A DNA stretch of 22,687 nucleotides from positions 1-22,687 of the IMG/VR virus record IMGVR_UViG_3300050821_001103; one strand, given 5' to 3'. A program made the translations under genes and the position numbers. The stretch comes from a virus. Within the stretch, counting starts at the first letter, position 1. Every line of letters starts with the position of its first letter. The notes below the pieces were generated by a model, which saw nothing but the letters and a program-made list of their open reading frames with translations, was not told the origin of the DNA and did not search any database. Of this stretch, positions 4,378 to 21,787 are shown one piece after another.

Positions 4378-5613
4378 GTGACTGGCAATCTAAAGCCGAG
4401 CGATATTGCAAGCCTCGGCGACGGTATGCACGGCGATGGCGGCTATCTGTGGCTAAGGGTTAGGGGCGCGGCGCGGTCATGGATCGTGCGCGGCCCGCGC
4501 ATCAACGGCAAGAAACCGGAAGCCGGCCTCGGCTCGGTCGACCGCGTCTCGCTCGCTCTCGCCCGCAAAGAACGCGACAAGCTCGTTGAGCAATGGCGCA
4601 ACGGTAAGGACCCGGTCGCCGAGCGCCGCGCCGCGCGCGAGGCGGCGGCCAACCGTAAGACGTTCGCTGAGGTCGCGACGCTCAAGATCGCCGCCAAGCA
4701 ATCGGGTTGGCGGACGTCATTCGAGGGCCGCACGTCGACACTCGACACATGGACGAAAAACATGGAGGTCGATTGCGCCCCGATTGCCGCCAAGGCGATC
4801 GATGAAATCACGGTCGACGACATCAAACGCGTCGTCTCGCCTCATTGGGACAAAAACCACCACAAGACCGCGCGCGAGCTAATCTCGCGGATCGGCCAGG
4901 TTTTTGATTACGCAATCGCGCACGGCTGGCGCTCGGCCGCCAACCCCGCCGGATGGTCGGTGTTCAAACACCTATCGCCGACGGCTCCCGCCAAGCAGCA
5001 TCATGCCGCATTGCCCTGGCAAGACGTCCCGGCCTTCCTTCGTGAGTTGCGCACTTCCCCCGCCGTCGGGGTGGGCGTCGTCGAGTTCGCCATCTTGACC
5101 GCCACGCGCAGCGGCGAAACGCGCGGCGCCCAATGGTCGGAAATCGACTTCGTCGAACGCACTTGGACAATCCCGGCGTCGCGCATGAAGATGGGCAAGA
5201 AGCGCGCCGAACCGCATGTTGTCCCGCTGAGCGACCAAGCGATCGCGCTTCTTGAGCGCCTAAGAGCCGAAGGCCTCGCCGGCGATTGCATCTTCCCCGG
5301 CTACGTTGGAAGCCGCCAGCAACGCGCCACGAGCCCGGTCCCGAACGCCAGAGTTTGGCGACTGGTCAAGCGGCTCGGGGTCGACATCACCACGCACGGC
5401 TTTCGGTCGACGTTCCGCGTTTGGTGCGGCGAGCACGGGTTAGACCGCGAGTTGGCCGAGCGCTCGCTCGCGCACAAATTCGGATCGGAGATTGAGGAGG
5501 CTTACCAACGGTCGCGGCTCATCGCCCGGCGCGCGCCGCTTATGCAGCAATGGGCCGATTATTGCTGCGGCGCGCCGTCGACCGTTGTCTTGCCATTCAA
5601 GCGGAGCGCCTAA
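4378..5613 (+). CDS. int: P4-type tyrosine integrase
   Basis: 411-residue site-specific recombinase that would integrate and excise the phage. It starts at GTG 4378 with GGAG at 4365-4368 upstream. Layout: an N-terminal DUF4102-type domain (roughly 1-90; GGYLWLRVRG...LGSVDRVSLALARKERDKL), a SAM-like core-binding domain (about 95-200), and the catalytic domain (about 210-390). Visible active-site residues are Arg244 (TATRSGETRG), Lys271 in the beta-hairpin (SRMKMGKK), His340 and Arg343 (THGFRSTFRVWC), His366 (LAHK) and the nucleophile Tyr376 (EEAYQRS). All are intact, so the enzyme should be active. The preceding HTH gene is a likely Xis. Two bases separate its stop from the next gene. Confidence 0.95.
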   Translation: MTGNLKPSDIASLGDGMHGDGGYLWLRVRGAARSWIVRGPRINGKKPEAGLGSVDRVSLALARKERDKLVEQWRNGKDPVAERRAAREAAANRKTFAEVATLKIAAKQSGWRTSFEGRTSTLDTWTKNMEVDCAPIAAKAIDEITVDDIKRVVSPHWDKNHHKTARELISRIGQVFDYAIAHGWRSAANPAGWSVFKHLSPTAPAKQHHAALPWQDVPAFLRELRTSPAVGVGVVEFAILTATRSGETRGAQWSEIDFVERTWTIPASRMKMGKKRAEPHVVPLSDQAIALLERLRAEGLAGDCIFPGYVGSRQQRATSPVPNARVWRLVKRLGVDITTHGFRSTFRVWCGEHGLDRELAERSLAHKFGSEIEEAYQRSRLIARRAPLMQQWADYCCGAPSTVVLPFKRSA

Positions 5614-5615
5614 AG

Positions 5616-6083
5616 ATGGCGCGCGCCAAGTTCCGCCAGGTCGACGTCACCCGCGCGATACGCGCGGCAAAAGCATCGGGCCTTGACGTTGCCCGCGTCG
5701 AAATCGACGCCGAGGGCAAGATCACAATAGTTACGGGCTCGGCCGAGCCCGTGCTTCCGACGGCCGAGAGCGCTTTGGAAAGGTTCGAAAAAGAACGGGG
5801 AGCTATCGAGGAGGAACGCGCTCTCAGACTGAGGCAATGGCTAGCCGTCGCCCGTAAGTGTGGCTTTAGCGGCGCCTGGTGGGAGCGCACAAGCGGATGG
5901 GCCAACCTCAAAGCCGCCACAAGCGGCGTGTCCGTCGATTGTCATTGGGAAAACGCTCAAATGGGAGCTTTTGGAGGCGGTCCAAGCGGAGAAAAAGGCT
6001 CAATGAGGCAATGCGGCGACAGGCCCGTGAAAGCAGCAAGATGGCCTGGAGAAACACTTGCTGCAGGCGGCGCCGCTATATAG
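5616..6083 (+). CDS. Hypothetical protein downstream of integrase
   Basis: 155 residues from ATG 5616, 2 bp after the integrase stop. The first about 45 residues (MARAKFRQVDVTRAIRAAKA, then a LDVARVEIDAEGKITIV strand) look like a family of small proteins common next to phage integrases in Hyphomicrobiales, a basic helix followed by a short beta-hairpin. From about residue 60 on (acidic helix EKERGAIEEERALRLRQW, then a Gly/Trp/Cys-containing tail) I do not recognise it. The tail is less protein-like, so a frameshift or a degenerated C-terminus is possible; another frame covers 5860-6006. Function unknown. Confidence 0.55.
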   Translation: MARAKFRQVDVTRAIRAAKASGLDVARVEIDAEGKITIVTGSAEPVLPTAESALERFEKERGAIEEERALRLRQWLAVARKCGFSGAWWERTSGWANLKAATSGVSVDCHWENAQMGAFGGGPSGEKGSMRQCGDRPVKAARWPGETLAAGGAAI

Positions 6084-6579: not shown

Positions 6580-8144
6580 AACTGACCGCCCGCCCCCTGA
6601 CCGAACCACAATGACCGTAAGGCGTTTCTAAACTTGGGATCGGCCAAATACTCTTGAGGGTAAAACCGCTGCCCGGTCGCGGCGGTGGCGCTCGCAGCGT
6701 TGAAGGCGCGCTGCTGCGCAGCAGCGTCCAGCCGCGCCCTAATGGCGGGCGCAATTACATGAGGGCCATAGCCTGTCGCCGCCCCGATTAGCATTTCGGC
6801 GGCAAGATGTTGCGGATTGAGTTCGCGCTCGCTCGCGACGCCAATGCCGCCAGCAATTCCCGCGCCAACCAGAGGGTGCAAAATGTGCCGCAAATCGAAC
6901 GCCGAGGGCGTCAGGTTCGCCTGTGTCGGCTTGGCGGTCGCCGCAAGCGCATCGAATGCATCGCCGGTCGGCGTTCCTTGGCGGGCGAAGTTCGCGCTTT
7001 CCGGGCTTTGCAAATACGATCTCATCTGGCTTCCGACGTCGGGACCGCCGCTGCGACCAGCCCTCCCCTGCATCTCGGCCAGGCGCTCCATGTCCATCTC
7101 GGTTCCGTGCGCCGCATTCAACCGCTCGACGGCGATCGCTCCGGCGCCGAGCGGACCGGGCGTCATGCCGCCAGCCGAAACGGGCTGCGAATTTTGCAGC
7201 ATGTCGTTTAAATGCCTTTGGGCGATCTGGCCCGCGTCGGGCACAGCGTCGCGGGTCTTGCCGACATAGAGGTCGCGTAGCGCGTCCTTGACGTCCTCGG
7301 CGCTCGTCACGCCCCGGCCCAAGGCTTTCATTTCGATATTGCCGATCGCGCCAAGCGCGCCCGCGCCCTTTTGCGTCACCCGCGCGGGTTGCTGCCCGAT
7401 TTCGTTCCTGGCGTTCATCATCTTCTGGCGCAGGTCCGCGTTGTCATAGAGGACGTTGCTGGCGTCTTTCGCCGCTGCGTCGGTCTGGCCGGCAAAATAG
7501 CTCTGCGGCGGCAAATCGCTTGCCAATGGCCCCGTTGGCGGGCCACGCACGCCGCCAAGAATTCCGCCCGCGAGCGCGCCGCCGCCGCCGCCGATCAATG
7601 CCGCCTTGGCGATGTCGCTGGCGTCGCCGCCCGCCCCGGCGGTGCCGAGCGCGCTCGAGGCGGCGCCCTCAGCACCAGCGCCCGCCGCCCCGGCGGCGGC
7701 GGTCCGCAATGCGCCGCTGCCGAGCGGCGCCAGGCGGCCGGCGATCTTTGTCGCAAGGCCGAGCTTGCCCGGCCCGACAATATAGCCGGCGCCCTGCAGA
7801 GCGATGCGGGTCTGCGGGTCCATTTCCGCTTCGGCTTGCGCGGTCCGCTCGCGAACGCCGGGGATGAAACCGGATAAGCCACCGCTGAGGCCAGAGCCCG
7901 CAACTAACGCTTCGTTGGCGTTGATGTGCGGGTCGAAGGGATTGTTCGGCAGCACTTGCGCCAAGTGGGCGAGCATGTAGTCGCCCCAACCCACATTGGC
8001 CGGCTTGTTCCAAATCGGCGTCGTGCCGAGGTCCTGCCCGGCCGACTGCGCGGGCGGCGGGGGCGGTTGGTCTAAGGGGGTCGCGCCTTTCCATCCCTGC
8101 GACGGAGCGGGCGGATCAAGCGGCGTCGCGTCTCGCCATCCCAT
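6576..8144 (-). CDS. Large phage virion protein, probable internal/ejection protein
   Basis: 522 residues, the last gene of the leftward late operon, starting at ATG 8144 three bases after the preceding stop. The N-terminus is Pro-rich with a repeated GW(R/K)xATPLD motif (about 2-10 and 18-25). Residues about 120-200 are Gly/Ala-rich and hydrophobic (e.g. KAALIGGGGGALAGGILGG), as is a second stretch near 425-470 (GAGIAGGIGVASER); both could form membrane-active helices. The long Gln/Ala-rich remainder lacks enzyme motifs. Large proteins of this composition at the end of podovirus late operons are commonly internal virion proteins that enter the host envelope with the DNA. No direct homologue is recognised. 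Confidence 0.7.
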   Translation of the reverse strand: MGWRDATPLDPPAPSQGWKGATPLDQPPPPPAQSAGQDLGTTPIWNKPANVGWGDYMLAHLAQVLPNNPFDPHINANEALVAGSGLSGGLSGFIPGVRERTAQAEAEMDPQTRIALQGAGYIVGPGKLGLATKIAGRLAPLGSGALRTAAAGAAGAGAEGAASSALGTAGAGGDASDIAKAALIGGGGGALAGGILGGVRGPPTGPLASDLPPQSYFAGQTDAAAKDASNVLYDNADLRQKMMNARNEIGQQPARVTQKGAGALGAIGNIEMKALGRGVTSAEDVKDALRDLYVGKTRDAVPDAGQIAQRHLNDMLQNSQPVSAGGMTPGPLGAGAIAVERLNAAHGTEMDMERLAEMQGRAGRSGGPDVGSQMRSYLQSPESANFARQGTPTGDAFDALAATAKPTQANLTPSAFDLRHILHPLVGAGIAGGIGVASERELNPQHLAAEMLIGAATGYGPHVIAPAIRARLDAAAQQRAFNAASATAATGQRFYPQEYLADPKFRNALRSLWFGQGAGGQF

Positions 8145-11616: not shown

Positions 11617-13002
11617 TCAGCCACCGAGCGCCCCTCGGATTTGCGGCATGCGCGGCCGGCGAGCCGATGGCCCACGCGCGACGCCCATATTGGCGCCGAG
11701 CGCGCCGATGCCATTCATCGGGACCGGCGGGCTAAGCGGACCGCTGGCGACCGCGCCGAGGTTCGGGGTCGGCAGGCTCACGCCGCGCGGCATGCCCATG
11801 CCGGCGCCTGGCGTCATACCGCCCCCTGGCGTCGCGCCGCTGCCGGCCATGCCGAGCGCGTGCATGACGGCCGGGTGAACCGCCATCTTGCCGCCCGAGC
11901 CGGGGATCGGCGCGATCGCGCCCGGGCCGAACGTCTTGCCGACGTCCTCGGCCATCGGCCCGACGACTTTGGGATAGCTCTTCGGGTCGCCCTTGTAGCG
12001 GTAGGCGTAGACCGGAAGCTTGGTCGGCTTGTGCACGCCGACTTTGGTGATGTCGGTTTTCATGCGCCGATCGGAGAACAGGTTGCCGAGCGCGCCTAAG
12101 CCGCCGAGCGCGGCCATCGCATAGTCAGGCGAGGTTTGCGTTTGCGTCGTCGACTGCCCTTGCGTCGCCGAGCCGTAAGGCGTCATTCCGAGCGCCGACT
12201 GTAGAACGCCAAATTGCTGGCTTGGGTAAGCCCAAGCCTGTTGGAACTTCTGCATCTGCGCGTTGATTTGGTTTTGCGCTTGCTGTTGCTCGAGCGAGCC
12301 GGCGGTCACTTGCTCGCCGAAATTCTTGATCTGGTTCGCCTGCGCGGCGTTGCCGAGCCCGGTCAAGCCGCCCGCCGCCTGCAGGTTGAGCCCGGCCTGG
12401 TTTTGCTGCGCCGATTGGTTGGCCAACTGGCCTTGTAGGTTGGTGGCGATATCGCTTTGCGCCGCCGTTTGCGCCTGGCCATAGTTGGCTTGGTTCAACT
12501 GCGCCGCCATTTGCGCCATGCCCTGCGCGCCTTGCGCTTGCGTGACGCCCTGTTGAACGGCCTGGCGCGAGCCGCCGAAGGCGTTGGCTGCGTTCGCCGC
12601 GTTCTGATTTTGGTTCTGAGAGAGCGCGAGATTTTGCTGCATCACGGGCAGCGTCTTGTCGATGACGTTTTGCGTGTACTCGTTCATGTACGGCTGCAGA
12701 TTGGTCGAGCTCAATTGCCCGGCCGTCACGTTCTGCGGCGTCTGCCCCATGACCCCGAGGTAGCCTGCTTGCGCGGCGTTATATTGATCCTGGCCGGCAT
12801 TGCCGCCGGCGGCCGCGGTGTTCCAAGCTTGCTGCATCTGGGCGCCAGGATCGGCGACCATTTGCCCCTGGTATTGCTGTAGCGGTTGGTTGGCGACGTT
12901 TTGCGCAAACGCATAGTTCTGTTGGGCCGCATCGTTGATCCACGGCGGCAACTGCGTCGTTTGTTGCGTTTGTTGCGTTTGTTGCGAACCGCCCTGGCTC
13001 AT
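11617..13002 (-). CDS. Gln-rich virion/tail protein with C-terminal peptidase S74 (intramolecular chaperone) domain
   Basis: 461 residues from ATG 13002; GAGG stands 8-10 bases upstream, and the longer frame to 13110 lies in the preceding gene. Residues 1-20 hold a QQT tandem repeat. About 20-290 is a long Gln/Asn/Ala-rich helical region (e.g. QQNLALSQNQNQNAANAANA). About 309-385 is an S74/endosialidase-chaperone domain: LFSDRRMKTDITKVG with the Ser310-Asp311 pair, then LPVYAYRYKGDP and GPMAEDVGK. In this family the domain helps a trimeric fibre to fold and then cuts itself off before the Ser. Here about 80 residues follow the domain, rich in Gly, Pro and Met, which is unusual because S74 domains are normally at the very end. 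The gene overlaps its upstream neighbour by 4 bp. Confidence 0.82.
   Translation of the reverse strand: MSQGGSQQTQQTQQTTQLPPWINDAAQQNYAFAQNVANQPLQQYQGQMVADPGAQMQQAWNTAAAGGNAGQDQYNAAQAGYLGVMGQTPQNVTAGQLSSTNLQPYMNEYTQNVIDKTLPVMQQNLALSQNQNQNAANAANAFGGSRQAVQQGVTQAQGAQGMAQMAAQLNQANYGQAQTAAQSDIATNLQGQLANQSAQQNQAGLNLQAAGGLTGLGNAAQANQIKNFGEQVTAGSLEQQQAQNQINAQMQKFQQAWAYPSQQFGVLQSALGMTPYGSATQGQSTTQTQTSPDYAMAALGGLGALGNLFSDRRMKTDITKVGVHKPTKLPVYAYRYKGDPKSYPKVVGPMAEDVGKTFGPGAIAPIPGSGGKMAVHPAVMHALGMAGSGATPGGGMTPGAGMGMPRGVSLPTPNLGAVASGPLSPPVPMNGIGALGANMGVARGPSARRPRMPQIRGALGG
12960..12986 (-). repeat. Three perfect 9-bp tandem repeats encoding QQT
   Basis: TTTGTTGCG is repeated exactly three times on the plus strand at 12960-12968, 12969-12977 and 12978-12986. 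On the minus strand this encodes the Gln-Gln-Thr repeats at residues about 7-15 of the S74-domain protein, just after its start. The unit keeps frame, so copy-number change would lengthen the N-terminus without a frameshift. Confidence 0.85.
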
Positions 13003-13379
13003 GGGGAAACCTCTTTGCGGAACACCATGTTTGTCGACACGGTGTTCCAACCATGGGATTTCGCCAGGCGCGCCCACCCGACACGACCTTGAGTGACGAT
13101 CGCGTCGCAATCCATTTTGCGCGCGAAGTCGAGAACTTGCGCATGCAAATTCTCGCCATCCTCCAAGTCGCCAACGAGGATGATGATAGTGAGAACGCGC
13201 CTTCTAGGGTAGACGCTGATTTCAGTTACGGCGATTGTTTCACGTGAAACATGAGCTTGCATGCGGCCGTCGGCGATGCGCTCGAGGAGGTCGCTGAGCG
13301 TGTAGAGGCCGCCGGCGCGCTCGAGCGCCTTCGCGAGCTTGGCGCGGTAGATGGCGCCCTTGTCGACGGCCGCGTTCAC
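12999..13379 (-). CDS. Small conserved phage protein, possibly GNAT-like; carries an internal parS
   Basis: 126 residues starting at GTG 13379, which overlaps the previous stop (GTGA), and ending in a 4-bp overlap with the S74 gene. The core reads as alternating strands and helices: a helix (GLYTLSDLLERIADG), strands (ETIAVTEISVYPRRRVLTII), an acidic turn (GDLEDGENLHAQVLDFARKM), then a strand (CDAIVTQGR), a helix (VGWARLAKSHGW) and a final strand. The order and the GW...HGW...NMVFRKE ending resemble small acetyltransferase-fold (GNAT-like) proteins found among podovirus tail genes. I give that only as a resemblance. Residues 43-48 (HVSRET) are encoded by the 16-bp parS site described separately. 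Confidence 0.7.
   Translation of the reverse strand: MNAAVDKGAIYRAKLAKALERAGGLYTLSDLLERIADGRMQAHVSRETIAVTEISVYPRRRVLTIIILVGDLEDGENLHAQVLDFARKMDCDAIVTQGRVGWARLAKSHGWNTVSTNMVFRKEVSP
13019..13048 (-). repeat. 8-bp inverted repeat (hairpin) just upstream of the S74 gene
   Basis: GGAACACC (13019-13026) and GGTGTTCC (13041-13048) are perfect reverse complements with a 14-bp loop. In the minus-strand transcript the hairpin would end a few bases before the ribosome site of the S74-domain gene. It lies in the coding end of the preceding gene. It may tune translation of the abundant downstream product, or be chance. Confidence 0.4.
13236..13251. promoter_or_regulatory. Perfect 16-bp parS (ParB-binding centromere) sequence
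   Basis: TGTTTCACGTGAAACA is a perfect palindrome identical to the widely conserved bacterial chromosomal parS consensus recognised by the ParB/Spo0J CTPase clamp. It lies inside the 126-residue late gene, read on the minus strand as CAT GTT TCA CGT GAA ACA (HVSRET). All six codons touching it end in A or T, in a GC-rich genome. No parA or parB gene is visible in the window, so it would have to use a host ParB or one encoded elsewhere on the phage. I saw no second copy. Confidence 0.8.
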
Positions 13380-13651
13380 GGCTTGCCGCCGCCAAGGGCA
13401 ATCTGCGTCGCCGTGACCACGCCGGCCGAGTTGACGCGGATAATGAAAACTTTCGGGATTGTGCCGGCGGGCGCGTCATAAGCCGAAACCATGAAGCCCG
13501 GCTGCGCCACCGTGCCGCTGATTTTGTCGGCGAAGCCGTGCCGGCACCACAAAGAGAAATTGCGCAAGTAGCCCGAGAGCGTCGTCGACACGTCGGGCAT
13601 GTTCGGAAGGTCGGGCGGCGGCTGGAGGGTGCGCGGCGTCGGCGTCGCCAT
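13376..13651 (-). CDS. Small phage tail-region protein, unknown
   Basis: 91 residues from ATG 13651, which overlaps the preceding stop by one base (TGATG); a TTG directly before it (13654) is an alternative start. The N-terminus is Pro-rich (TPTPRTLQPPPDLPNMPD), followed by a helix containing YLRNFSLWCRHGF and two strands near the end (KVFIIRVNSAGVVTATQIAL). The pattern of a Pro-rich arm plus small beta-structure is common in phage baseplate or tail-associated proteins, but I do not recognise the family. Its stop overlaps the next gene. Probably a minor virion component. Confidence 0.65.
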   Translation of the reverse strand: MATPTPRTLQPPPDLPNMPDVSTTLSGYLRNFSLWCRHGFADKISGTVAQPGFMVSAYDAPAGTIPKVFIIRVNSAGVVTATQIALGGGKP

Positions 13652-15201
13652 CAACGGTCTCCTCTCGCAACACTATCAACAAGGTGTTGTCCGACCGTCA
13701 CCGGCAGGACTTGCGGGCCGGCGAGCGCAATGCGCAGCCGAATGTCGCGGCCGGTCGTTCTAAGATCGACATAGCCGTCTGAGCGGACCGGCTTGGGCGT
13801 GGTTTGGAGCTCTGGCGTGCCGGTCGAGCGCGAATTGCGATAGAAGATCGAATATAACAAATTTGTTATATCGCCCTCGACGTCGGGCAGCATTTGCTTG
13901 ACCGTCGTGAGCTTGGCGCCGGAATTGAGGTTCAAGTCGAATGTCTCGGCCCACGGCAATTCGACGTCAGCCGGATAGACGTTGCCCGCCTCGTGCTCAT
14001 AGGCGACGAGGCCGTCGGCCATGATGGTGTGGGTCGAATAGCTCGCCGTGATCCCGGCCGAGCGCGCCATTCTGGCCTGGCCCCACCAACCCTCTTTGTA
14101 ACAGTAGATTACAGCGCGGGTGTTTCCAGGCTGGCCGGCTTGAGGGAAAAACCACCAAAACTCGCTGAAATTGGCGACGTGCACCGCGCACGCCTGATAA
14201 CGCACGTTAAGGAGGTCGACGTCGTCATCGATCCACGGCCGCACATTGCAGGCGACGGGCATGACTGACGTGCCGTCGAATGAGAATACGCCTTGCTGCG
14301 AAAACCACAGCGCGAGGCCGCCCGTATTGACGGCCGATTGCGGCGACCATGGCGTGCACGCCTCGGCCAATTCGACATAATTGTAGATGTACGGCGCGCC
14401 GAGGAATTGGCTGACATAGGTCTTTTTGCCCGTCCAAAAGAGCACGCCCGAGCGTGTCGCTAGCGCCGCGATGATCGGGCTCGCGGGCTCGATATCGAGA
14501 AAGCCGGCTTGGCTCGTGACGTTGGCATAGTCCCACGCGCCCGGGTTCTCTTGATCGCACCAGGCAAAGCGCCGGAACGAGCCGCCGCCGGCCGTGCCGT
14601 CGGACGTCGAGCCGAAAATGATCAAAAATCTTTCTTGGGTGACGACGAACAGCCGGCCGGTCGGAACGGGCCCCCGCCCCGAGCTCGCCGGCTGCACCAC
14701 GGCGTGGCCGCCGACGGCGGGGTCCCACATGAGCAAGCGCCCGTCGGGCGACGTCATCGCATAGAGGATGGAGCCGAAATTCGCGAGGCTGAAAGCGTCG
14801 GGTGTTTTGTCGAGCGCCTCGATCGTCGAAATGATGCGCGGCGTGCCGAAGGTGTCAGCGCCAAAGGGACCGTCGCCAAAGCCGCCGGTCGCCGGCGGGG
14901 CGGGCATGACAATCGGCGGGGTCGGGGAAATGTCGGTAAGCGTGCCGCCGGTGTCGACGTAAAGGTGGCCTTCGCACAAATATGCGATGTGGAGCACCTG
15001 ATCCAGGCCGTACCACGAATGAACGCGTTTGCAGCGCGAGGCGAAGGCGTAATTGTATTGCGCCTGGCCGCCAATCGGGGCCATTTGCTGCTCGACCCAC
15101 CGCATGCAATTGACTTCCGCCCAATTGCTCGAGCGCATCTTTTTGGTCGGCTTGGCGATGACGCCAGGCGGGATTTCGAGGGGCTGGAATTGCGAGCTCA
15201 T
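13651..15201 (-). CDS. Large tail / packaged-DNA stabilisation protein (P22 gp10-like role)
   Basis: 516 residues from ATG 15201 (ATGA overlap with the collar gene). It begins QFQPLEIPPGVIAKPTKKMR, then NWAEVNCMRWVEQQMAPIGG, an opening I associate with large podovirus proteins that build the tail hub. The rest is beta-rich with repeated aromatic strand pairs (GRLLMWDPAVG, GRLFVVTQERFLIIFGSTSD, ALWFSQQGVFSFDGTSV, EFWWFFPQAG), consistent with a beta-propeller. P22 gp10 and similar plug proteins close the portal channel after packaging. The assignment rests on fold impression and position after the adaptor and fibre genes, not on a sequence motif. It contains the 20-bp palindrome at 13852-13871. 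Confidence 0.65.
   Translation of the reverse strand: MSSQFQPLEIPPGVIAKPTKKMRSSNWAEVNCMRWVEQQMAPIGGQAQYNYAFASRCKRVHSWYGLDQVLHIAYLCEGHLYVDTGGTLTDISPTPPIVMPAPPATGGFGDGPFGADTFGTPRIISTIEALDKTPDAFSLANFGSILYAMTSPDGRLLMWDPAVGGHAVVQPASSGRGPVPTGRLFVVTQERFLIIFGSTSDGTAGGGSFRRFAWCDQENPGAWDYANVTSQAGFLDIEPASPIIAALATRSGVLFWTGKKTYVSQFLGAPYIYNYVELAEACTPWSPQSAVNTGGLALWFSQQGVFSFDGTSVMPVACNVRPWIDDDVDLLNVRYQACAVHVANFSEFWWFFPQAGQPGNTRAVIYCYKEGWWGQARMARSAGITASYSTHTIMADGLVAYEHEAGNVYPADVELPWAETFDLNLNSGAKLTTVKQMLPDVEGDITNLLYSIFYRNSRSTGTPELQTTPKPVRSDGYVDLRTTGRDIRLRIALAGPQVLPVTVGQHLVDSVARGDR
13852..13871. repeat. Perfect 20-bp AT-rich palindrome inside the tail-hub gene
   Basis: ATATAACAAATTTGTTATAT equals its own reverse complement over all 20 bases. 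Only two of the 20 positions are G or C, in a gene that is otherwise GC-rich. On the minus strand it encodes residues 444-450 with codons that include ATA and TTA, both rare in such genomes. The flanking bases do not extend the symmetry. It has the form of a dimeric regulator site. Confidence 0.85.
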
Positions 15202-20774: not shown

Positions 20775-20802
20775 GGGCGGCCGTAACGGGCCGCCCTTTT
20801 TT
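20775..20802 (+). terminator. Terminator-like hairpin, oriented for plus-strand transcription
   Basis: Stem GGGCGGCC (20775-20782) with GGCCGCCC (20789-20796), loop GTAACG, followed on the plus strand by six T residues (20797-20802). It lies right after the capsid stop in the only sizeable spacer of the late operon. As a classic intrinsic terminator it would stop plus-strand (antisense) transcripts. For the minus-strand late mRNA it would be a hairpin preceded by an A run, so it might instead protect or pace the capsid message. Confidence 0.65.
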
Positions 20803-21787
20803 ATTTCTTGATGCCGTTGAAGATGACGTGCGCCAGGCTGTTGCGCATCTCCAAGCCCCATTCGACGACGATCATGCGGGTTTCGGCGTCGCCGGTGCGC
20901 GCCATCAAATACTGCCTAAAGGCCCTGAAAAAAGCCACCGCGGCGTAGTCAGGATCGATCAGCAAAGCAACGTCTACAGGAACCCACCGTGAAGGCGCGA
21001 CTTTGATGCGGCCAAAATCCGTCGCGATGACGTCAATAGTTGACACAACTTCAGTTTTGCCAACTAAGACTTGCGTTGTGCTTCGGCCGACGAATGTGCT
21101 GATTGTGCGCTTGGGCCCTGGCGGCACGATCCACAATGTCGGGCTCGCGCCGTTGGTGTAAGCCTGTTGCATCGCGTCGCCGAGCATGGCCTCGGTAATC
21201 GACACTTGCGAGCCGCCGGCGACGGCGGCGAACGCGTCGGTCGCCAGGACCGGAACGCCGGCGGTGACGGTGCCGGGCGCGATCGCCGCATTGACGGCGC
21301 CGGTCTTGTCCTTGGCGCGGGCCACCCAATGGCTGAACGCTTCCGTAGTTCTCGCCGTCGGGCCGGTGTCGTTGCCATCGTTGCGCGCCTGGCGGCCGCA
21401 CAAGATGGTTTCCATGTCCGACTTGAGCACCTTGCTGGCGAGCGCCATCTGGTGCGCCATTTCCGACCCTTTGCCGGCGGCGTCGCTCTCCTCCTGAGTG
21501 CCCGACACCGTCGCGTCGCGCTCGGAAATCTGAGTGACGTTGTTTTGGCGAATGGTCGGCTGCGCCGGGGCGTTGGCGAGCACAAAGCCTTCGAGTTGGG
21601 CGTTGTTCGGGTTGACGATCGGCAAATTCTCAGTCTGCCAATCGAAAATCCGGTTCTTTACATTGCGTCGACGAATAGCCGACATAACCGGCGTGTCGAA
21701 CGGGTCAATGTTATAGATGGCGTTAGATAAATCTTCTCTATTGCCGACGGCTTGATAAGTCGTGAAGGCGTTCGTAACCTTGGGCAT
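20801..21787 (-). CDS. Major capsid protein, SU10/DUF5309 family
   Basis: 328 residues from ATG 21787, with GAGG upstream. Landmarks: TYQAVGNREDLSNAIYNIDP then FDTPVMSAIRRRN near the N-terminus, the DWQTENLP strand, and NNVTQISERDATVSGTQEES; then a spine-helix-like stretch (GSEMAHQMALASKVLKSDME) and the late segment STFVGRSTTQVLVGKTEVVS. The order matches SU10-type major capsid proteins (HK97 fold) of podoviruses. It would form the icosahedral shell with the scaffold protein encoded immediately upstream (9 bp gap). The next gene is separated by a hairpin spacer, compatible with higher expression of capsid protein than of later genes. Confidence 0.9.
   Translation of the reverse strand: MPKVTNAFTTYQAVGNREDLSNAIYNIDPFDTPVMSAIRRRNVKNRIFDWQTENLPIVNPNNAQLEGFVLANAPAQPTIRQNNVTQISERDATVSGTQEESDAAGKGSEMAHQMALASKVLKSDMETILCGRQARNDGNDTGPTARTTEAFSHWVARAKDKTGAVNAAIAPGTVTAGVPVLATDAFAAVAGGSQVSITEAMLGDAMQQAYTNGASPTLWIVPPGPKRTISTFVGRSTTQVLVGKTEVVSTIDVIATDFGRIKVAPSRWVPVDVALLIDPDYAAVAFFRAFRQYLMARTGDAETRMIVVEWGLEMRNSLAHVIFNGIKK

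Follow-up and report, generated by a model that had tools for sequence, protein, structure and literature searches.

The window, i.e. the whole stretch of DNA analysed here, is a 22.7-kb virus record and constitutes a fragment of a temperate phage. The minus strand encodes an SU10-type capsid, an ejection protein and other structural proteins, and the plus strand carries early genes including a tyrosine integrase (4378..5613, assigned with PHROGs/Pfam). The 16-bp palindrome TGTTTCACGTGAAACA, which has the sequence of a chromosomal ParB-binding site (parS), is located ~7.6 kb from the integrase gene at 13236..13251, with no strand assigned. It lies within a minus-strand gene (12999..13379, phrog_22172) for a GNAT-fold (acetyltransferase-like) protein of 126 aa. 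The AlphaFold model of this protein has a pLDDT of 86, and its top fold matches in the PDB are GNAT enzymes (acetyltransferases), with E ~3e-4. The site codons CAT GTT TCA CGT GAA ACA encode H43 to T48, which form the turn of a beta hairpin in the model (strands 40-45 and 48-56). All neighbouring genes are on the same strand. Upstream are a conserved late-region protein of 92 aa without family match (13376..13654) and a virion structural protein (13651..15201, phrog_3287), and a DNA ejection protein with a Peptidase_S74 chaperone domain (phrog_4287) is encoded at 11617..13020. The gene for the major capsid protein (SU10_MCP, phrog_1328) is found at 20801..21787, again on the minus strand, and the palindrome is thus situated in the structural block.

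The exact parS-type match proposed by the sequence-only reading was confirmed: TGTTTCACGTGAAACA is a perfect 16-bp palindrome, fits the 16-bp palindromic chromosomal-type consensus TGTTNCACGTGAAACA and is the sole match in the window, since no second parS-like word was found there even when three mismatches were allowed. The chromosomal parS consensus is said to be that of Livny et al. from 2007. A chance of roughly 5 in a million had been given for the occurrence of the 16-mer, which is correct for random DNA. Dinucleotide shuffles of the window gave 0.02 expected matches at a laxity of three mismatches; on this result and on the frozen rare codons described below, a chance match was rejected. 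The phage site is present as a single copy in a late gene, neither clustered nor near parAB or oriC. Hence, it is not a chromosomal centromere, just the same kind of site.

Codon statistics were computed for five late genes in nine related sequences, using the window as reference and only codons with conserved residues. All six site codons end in A or T, as had been noticed from the sequence, whereas 79% of the codons in these genes have G or C as the third base. The synonymous identity of the six site codons was 45/46. The same six codons elsewhere in the five genes were identical in 104 of 256 cases (41%), A/T-ending codons of any kind outside the site in 940 of 1797 cases (52%), and 73% of all conserved-residue codons matched the window. 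Six randomly sampled A/T-ending columns were as unchanged as the site with P ~1e-4, and nowhere else in the five genes do at least four fully conserved A/T-ending codons follow one another. For a window of 15 codons over the site, synonymous identity reached 0.966, the mean of the gene being 0.80 and the values of the other late genes 0.63-0.75. Purifying selection on the DNA word itself, not on the protein, was shown by this comparison. The strongest synonymous conservation spans codons 41-58 (13206..13259, minus strand) and thus runs gene-downstream for ~30 bp past the palindrome (13206-13235, codons 49-58, ATC GCC GTA ACT GAA ATC AGC GTC TAC CCT). This extension is not explained by parS alone.

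The palindrome might have no role as DNA and be kept merely for the residues HVSRETI, whether by constraint on the protein, biased codon use or an overlapping antisense ORF. These residues are nearly invariant in the clade and the antisense frame is open over the region in all relatives, but homologues outside the clade vary the HVSRETI positions freely, and protein constraint does not account for rare A/T-ending codons which are frozen here and mostly exchanged elsewhere. The antisense frame covers most of the gene, yet the synonymous freezing peaks at codons 41-58. Protein-only constraint and an antisense overlapping gene were rejected on the codon freezing and the variable residues in homologues, and this explanation is hardly tenable.

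Eight close relatives with a protein identity of 76-89% were taken from viral contigs. Each of these records has one copy of the site. The exact 16-mer is present in five of the eight, one relative (L124) has a single change at the outermost position (last base T instead of A), and in two (L122 and L127) the site reads TGTTTCACATGAAACA (CACATG), due to a change of Arg46 to His. TGTTTCACATGAAACA is a natural alphaproteobacterial parS found beside the canonical copy (see below), so the change in the latter two is not a loss. Each of the nine phages carries a putative parS in a form used by hosts, or one altered at the outermost base alone. Homologous phages encoding the same residues with different codons, such that the palindrome is lost, would have spoken against the sequence-only reading. 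This check was performed and the reading withstood it, the parS form being kept in 8/8 relatives. Distant homologues (36-54% identity) have no site, and their residues differ exactly there (SWVEGNSW, LWPAPKGC). Because the site is absent from them, it was most simply gained within the clade of the window phage, in a segment which is variable across the family and in which the protein tolerates change. The distant homologues manage without the site, thus, the phage family at large does not need parS. A search of genome contigs for prophage homologues gave a single distant locus in Paracoccus, without the site. By kinship of its proteins only, the host of the window phage would be alphaproteobacterial.

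The exact 16-mer was found in 108 of 144 alphaproteobacterial genomes, often as a pair ~2 kb apart, and TGTTTCACATGAAACA in 12 of the 144; the reversed control gave no genome in either case. In three genomes, TGTTTCACATGAAACA has an exact parS as its neighbour, at distances of 66 bp, 1.95 kb and 2.1 kb, and thus resembles a second copy of the centromere. The ParB of Hyphomonas neptunium, an alphaproteobacterium, binds exactly the oligonucleotide TGTTTCACGTGAAACA in a gel shift, and a mutation of two bases (TGCCTC) abolishes binding (PMC6650430). In Corynebacterium glutamicum, a single ectopic parS suffices for ParB to accumulate over ~9 kb to either side, and SMC is recruited there as well (PMC7083940). 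In the alphaproteobacterial genomes G092, G174 and G072 (L260-L266), exact parS words were also observed far from the usual pair, on other contigs or many kb off. The seven loci were inspected by eye, without a family search, as candidate prophage sites; they resembled ordinary host genes and were rejected.

That no parAB is visible had also been stated by the sequence-only reading, and this holds beyond the window, for the eight relatives. No partition protein was detected among those window ORFs which were selected for PHROGs/Pfam (the window was not scanned separately for ParB_N), and ParA-type AAA_31 (PF13614) was absent from the window and the eight clade records. Likewise, ParB_N (PF02195) was not detected in any of the eight records, which include G002 and G004 of ~44-45 kb. 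The window is a 22.7-kb fragment, so the absence of parAB there alone proves little. G004 (44.9 kb) has an exact terminal repeat of 127 bp, and in G002 (44.2 kb) the initial 100 bp are found again 412 bp before the end; judged by such features, both genomes look complete. Both contain integrase-like ORFs (by ORF and similarity). An own partition system was rejected as far as searched (ParB_N and AAA_31). The further suggestion, a phage-plasmid that uses the palindrome for its partition, is not preferred: the tyrosine integrase in the window and the integrase-like ORFs of G002 and G004 speak for integration, and no replication or partition module was seen.

The exact 16-mer occurs in at least 120 stretches of viral contigs in one scan, and the 16-mer and a flanked 18-mer together in at least 186 distinct viral contigs. 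Three control palindromes of the same base composition were found in 1, 20 and 15 contigs of the whole viral collection. The 18-mer with C/G flanks was present in 69 viral contigs, yet only 3 of the 120 listed stretches with the 16-mer are flanked in this way; these three counts lead to the rough estimate that probably on the order of 1,000 contigs, if not more, contain the 16-mer. The 16-mer is strongly over-represented in viral contigs compared to the control palindromes, whereby the total enrichment is an estimate. Among the ORFs bearing the site are many with matches to phage families, such as terminase, primase, head-tail adaptor, endolysin and tail fibre. According to shared neighbouring proteins, 189 loci fell into 82 neighbourhood groups, so phages probably evolved or picked up parS on many separate occasions. 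ParB_N was found in two of 50 site-bearing viral records, one of them above the cut-off. Viral collections include some host, plasmid or misassigned DNA. Misbinned host DNA is unlikely to be the main source of the sites, due to the ORFs of phage families and the 48 of 50 records without a ParB_N match. An intergenic bias of the viral sites is not claimed, as the coding fractions of the control palindromes were just slightly higher. In two records, five exact parS words each are clustered within ~0.8-0.9 kb (L017, 2657-3444; L044, 10535-11462), and neither record has a ParB_N match.

Two of the site-bearing contigs are Arthrobacter Korraviruses. The 14-bp core GTTTCACGTGAAAC is unchanged in 12/12 Korravirus isolates, whose identity in the region of DNA polymerase I and the PurA-like gene, between which the core is located, is ~70-100%. 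At the edges of the site, a symmetric change from T..A to C..G was observed. Three whole Korravirus genomes have two, two and three parS-type sites (L282: 25122 and 36349; L299: 23670 and 35039; L300: 23611, 34933 and 41968). Besides the pol I/purA site, another one near 24-25 kb is conserved in position, at a similar gene boundary in each of these genomes. Neither ParB nor an integrase is annotated in these three genomes; Korraviruses do encode several helix-turn-helix proteins. Among named isolates, the capsid protein of Ochrobactrum phage OH is closest to that of the window phage (66%), and CGTTCCACGTGAAACA is contained in the 55-bp terminal repeat of this phage (MT028492, L280, 14-29). For phage phiM5, 36 of 44 kb were searched without a convincing site, the best match having three mismatches.

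Hijacking of the host ParB, one of the roles suggested from the sequence alone, stays the best reading in view of the codon freezing, the variants in parS form, the missing parAB, the enrichment in contigs and the Korravirus sites. We consider it likely that the 16-mer is a functional parS kept to load the host's chromosomal ParB, whereby binding on this phage and a benefit are inferred. Points against this reading are the three of eight relatives without the exact 16-mer, the conservation that runs ~30 bp past the palindrome and the distant homologues in which the site is missing. Host ParB, a CTP-dependent DNA clamp, would load at the site after entry of the phage, and also in the prophage, and may spread from there across much of the late region. 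Loaded ParB could couple the phage DNA to the ParA, SMC or origin-positioning machinery of the host, which in turn might aid the positioning, organisation or retention of the phage genome inside the cell. Of all steps, this benefit is the least certain, and positioning or organisation of the phage genome is put forward only tentatively. In a wider sense, it seems fairly likely that many unrelated phages without ParB, whose hosts do have ParB, carry the host centromere word to recruit the ParB clamp of the host in the course of infection, perhaps along with SMC or ParA; parS would then be a widespread and repeatedly evolved cis-element enabling piracy without a phage protein.

Silencing of the late genes in the lysogen had been suggested as well, i.e. 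ParB loaded at the site would spread over the neighbouring late genes and shut them off. The palindrome belongs to the late structural block, an integrase is encoded in the window, a spread of the clamp as seen in C. glutamicum (PMC7083940) would cover much of this block, and in Pseudomonas aeruginosa ParB represses promoters adjoining parS (PMC5521831). However, a spo0J mutant of B. subtilis showed no significant change of expression (noted in PMC5521831), and the Korraviruses keep the same kind of site beside genes of DNA metabolism without an annotated integrase. Silencing is therefore not excluded, but misfits the Korraviruses and appears unlikely. Positioning or organisation of the incoming or replicating genome fits all cases, whereas late-gene silencing fits just the temperate ones.

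A decoy function, in which the many copies of the replicating phage titrate ParB (and SMC) away from the origin of the chromosome and impair segregation in the infected host, would be workable for temperate as well as lytic phages, requires no phage ParB and is consistent with the differing positions of the site in unrelated phages. We regard it as rather improbable, as there are just one or few sites per genome and direct evidence is lacking. An operator of a non-ParB regulator of phage or host, which shares the sequence by coincidence, would equally explain the symmetric edge changes in Korraviruses, these being expected for any homodimer site, and helix-turn-helix proteins are available there. 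But precisely the host parS word recurs in independent phages, with alphaproteobacteria as hosts in some cases and actinobacteria in others, the variant in the clade of the window phage switches to another host parS form, and the position deep in the GNAT coding sequence is unusual for an operator (no promoter scan was made). Such a coincidence is very unlikely.

Compared with chromosomal parS (Hyphomonas neptunium, Caulobacter, Bacillus), the phage site has the identical 16-bp word and even the natural variant form coincides, but it is single, located in a late gene and not beside parAB or oriC. P1, N15 and mycobacterial extrachromosomal prophages encode their own parA and parB with cognate sites and have a plasmid lifestyle. 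In these ParABS systems, mycobacterial examples of which are given in PMC7157519, a centromere site on the phage genome is likewise read by a ParB-type protein; in contrast, the window phage has an integrase, no parA/parB was found in it and its site is that of the host. Engineered reporters provide another parallel. For P22, a parS label was reportedly placed on the phage (PMC4697819), as for lambda-parS. In lambda-parS and P22-parS, an artificial parS in the phage genome gathers ParB given in trans, and foci are formed in infection (PMC13190303 for lambda). These reporters are man-made labels with an imaging ParB, whereas the site in the window is natural and matches chromosomal ParB. An earlier report of host-type parS in phages was not found in the open-access literature, to which the search was confined; it did not extend to any bioRxiv preprints or to most of the subscription literature. 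If the preferred reading, i.e. recruitment of host ParB, is true, phages exploit bacterial chromosome segregation with a DNA tag alone and ParB joins the host factors commandeered by phages. The site may then serve as a simple sequence signature by which uncultivated phages are connected with hosts possessing ParB, and experiments on ParB, SMC and the loading of the CTP clamp for or against invading DNA would be opened up. With Korraviruses on Arthrobacter sp. ATCC 21022, named phages are at hand in which the idea can already be tested.

Only four perfect palindromes of at least 16 bp exist in the window, one of which is the parS 16-mer. The virion protein gene contains a 20-bp perfect AT-rich palindrome, ATATAACAAATTTGTTATAT (13852-13871), ~600 bp from parS, which is identical in 4/8 relatives, whereas the remaining four have it disrupted. 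On the integrase side, GC-rich perfect palindromes of 20 and 18 bp were observed at 5733-5752 and 6709-6726, respectively.
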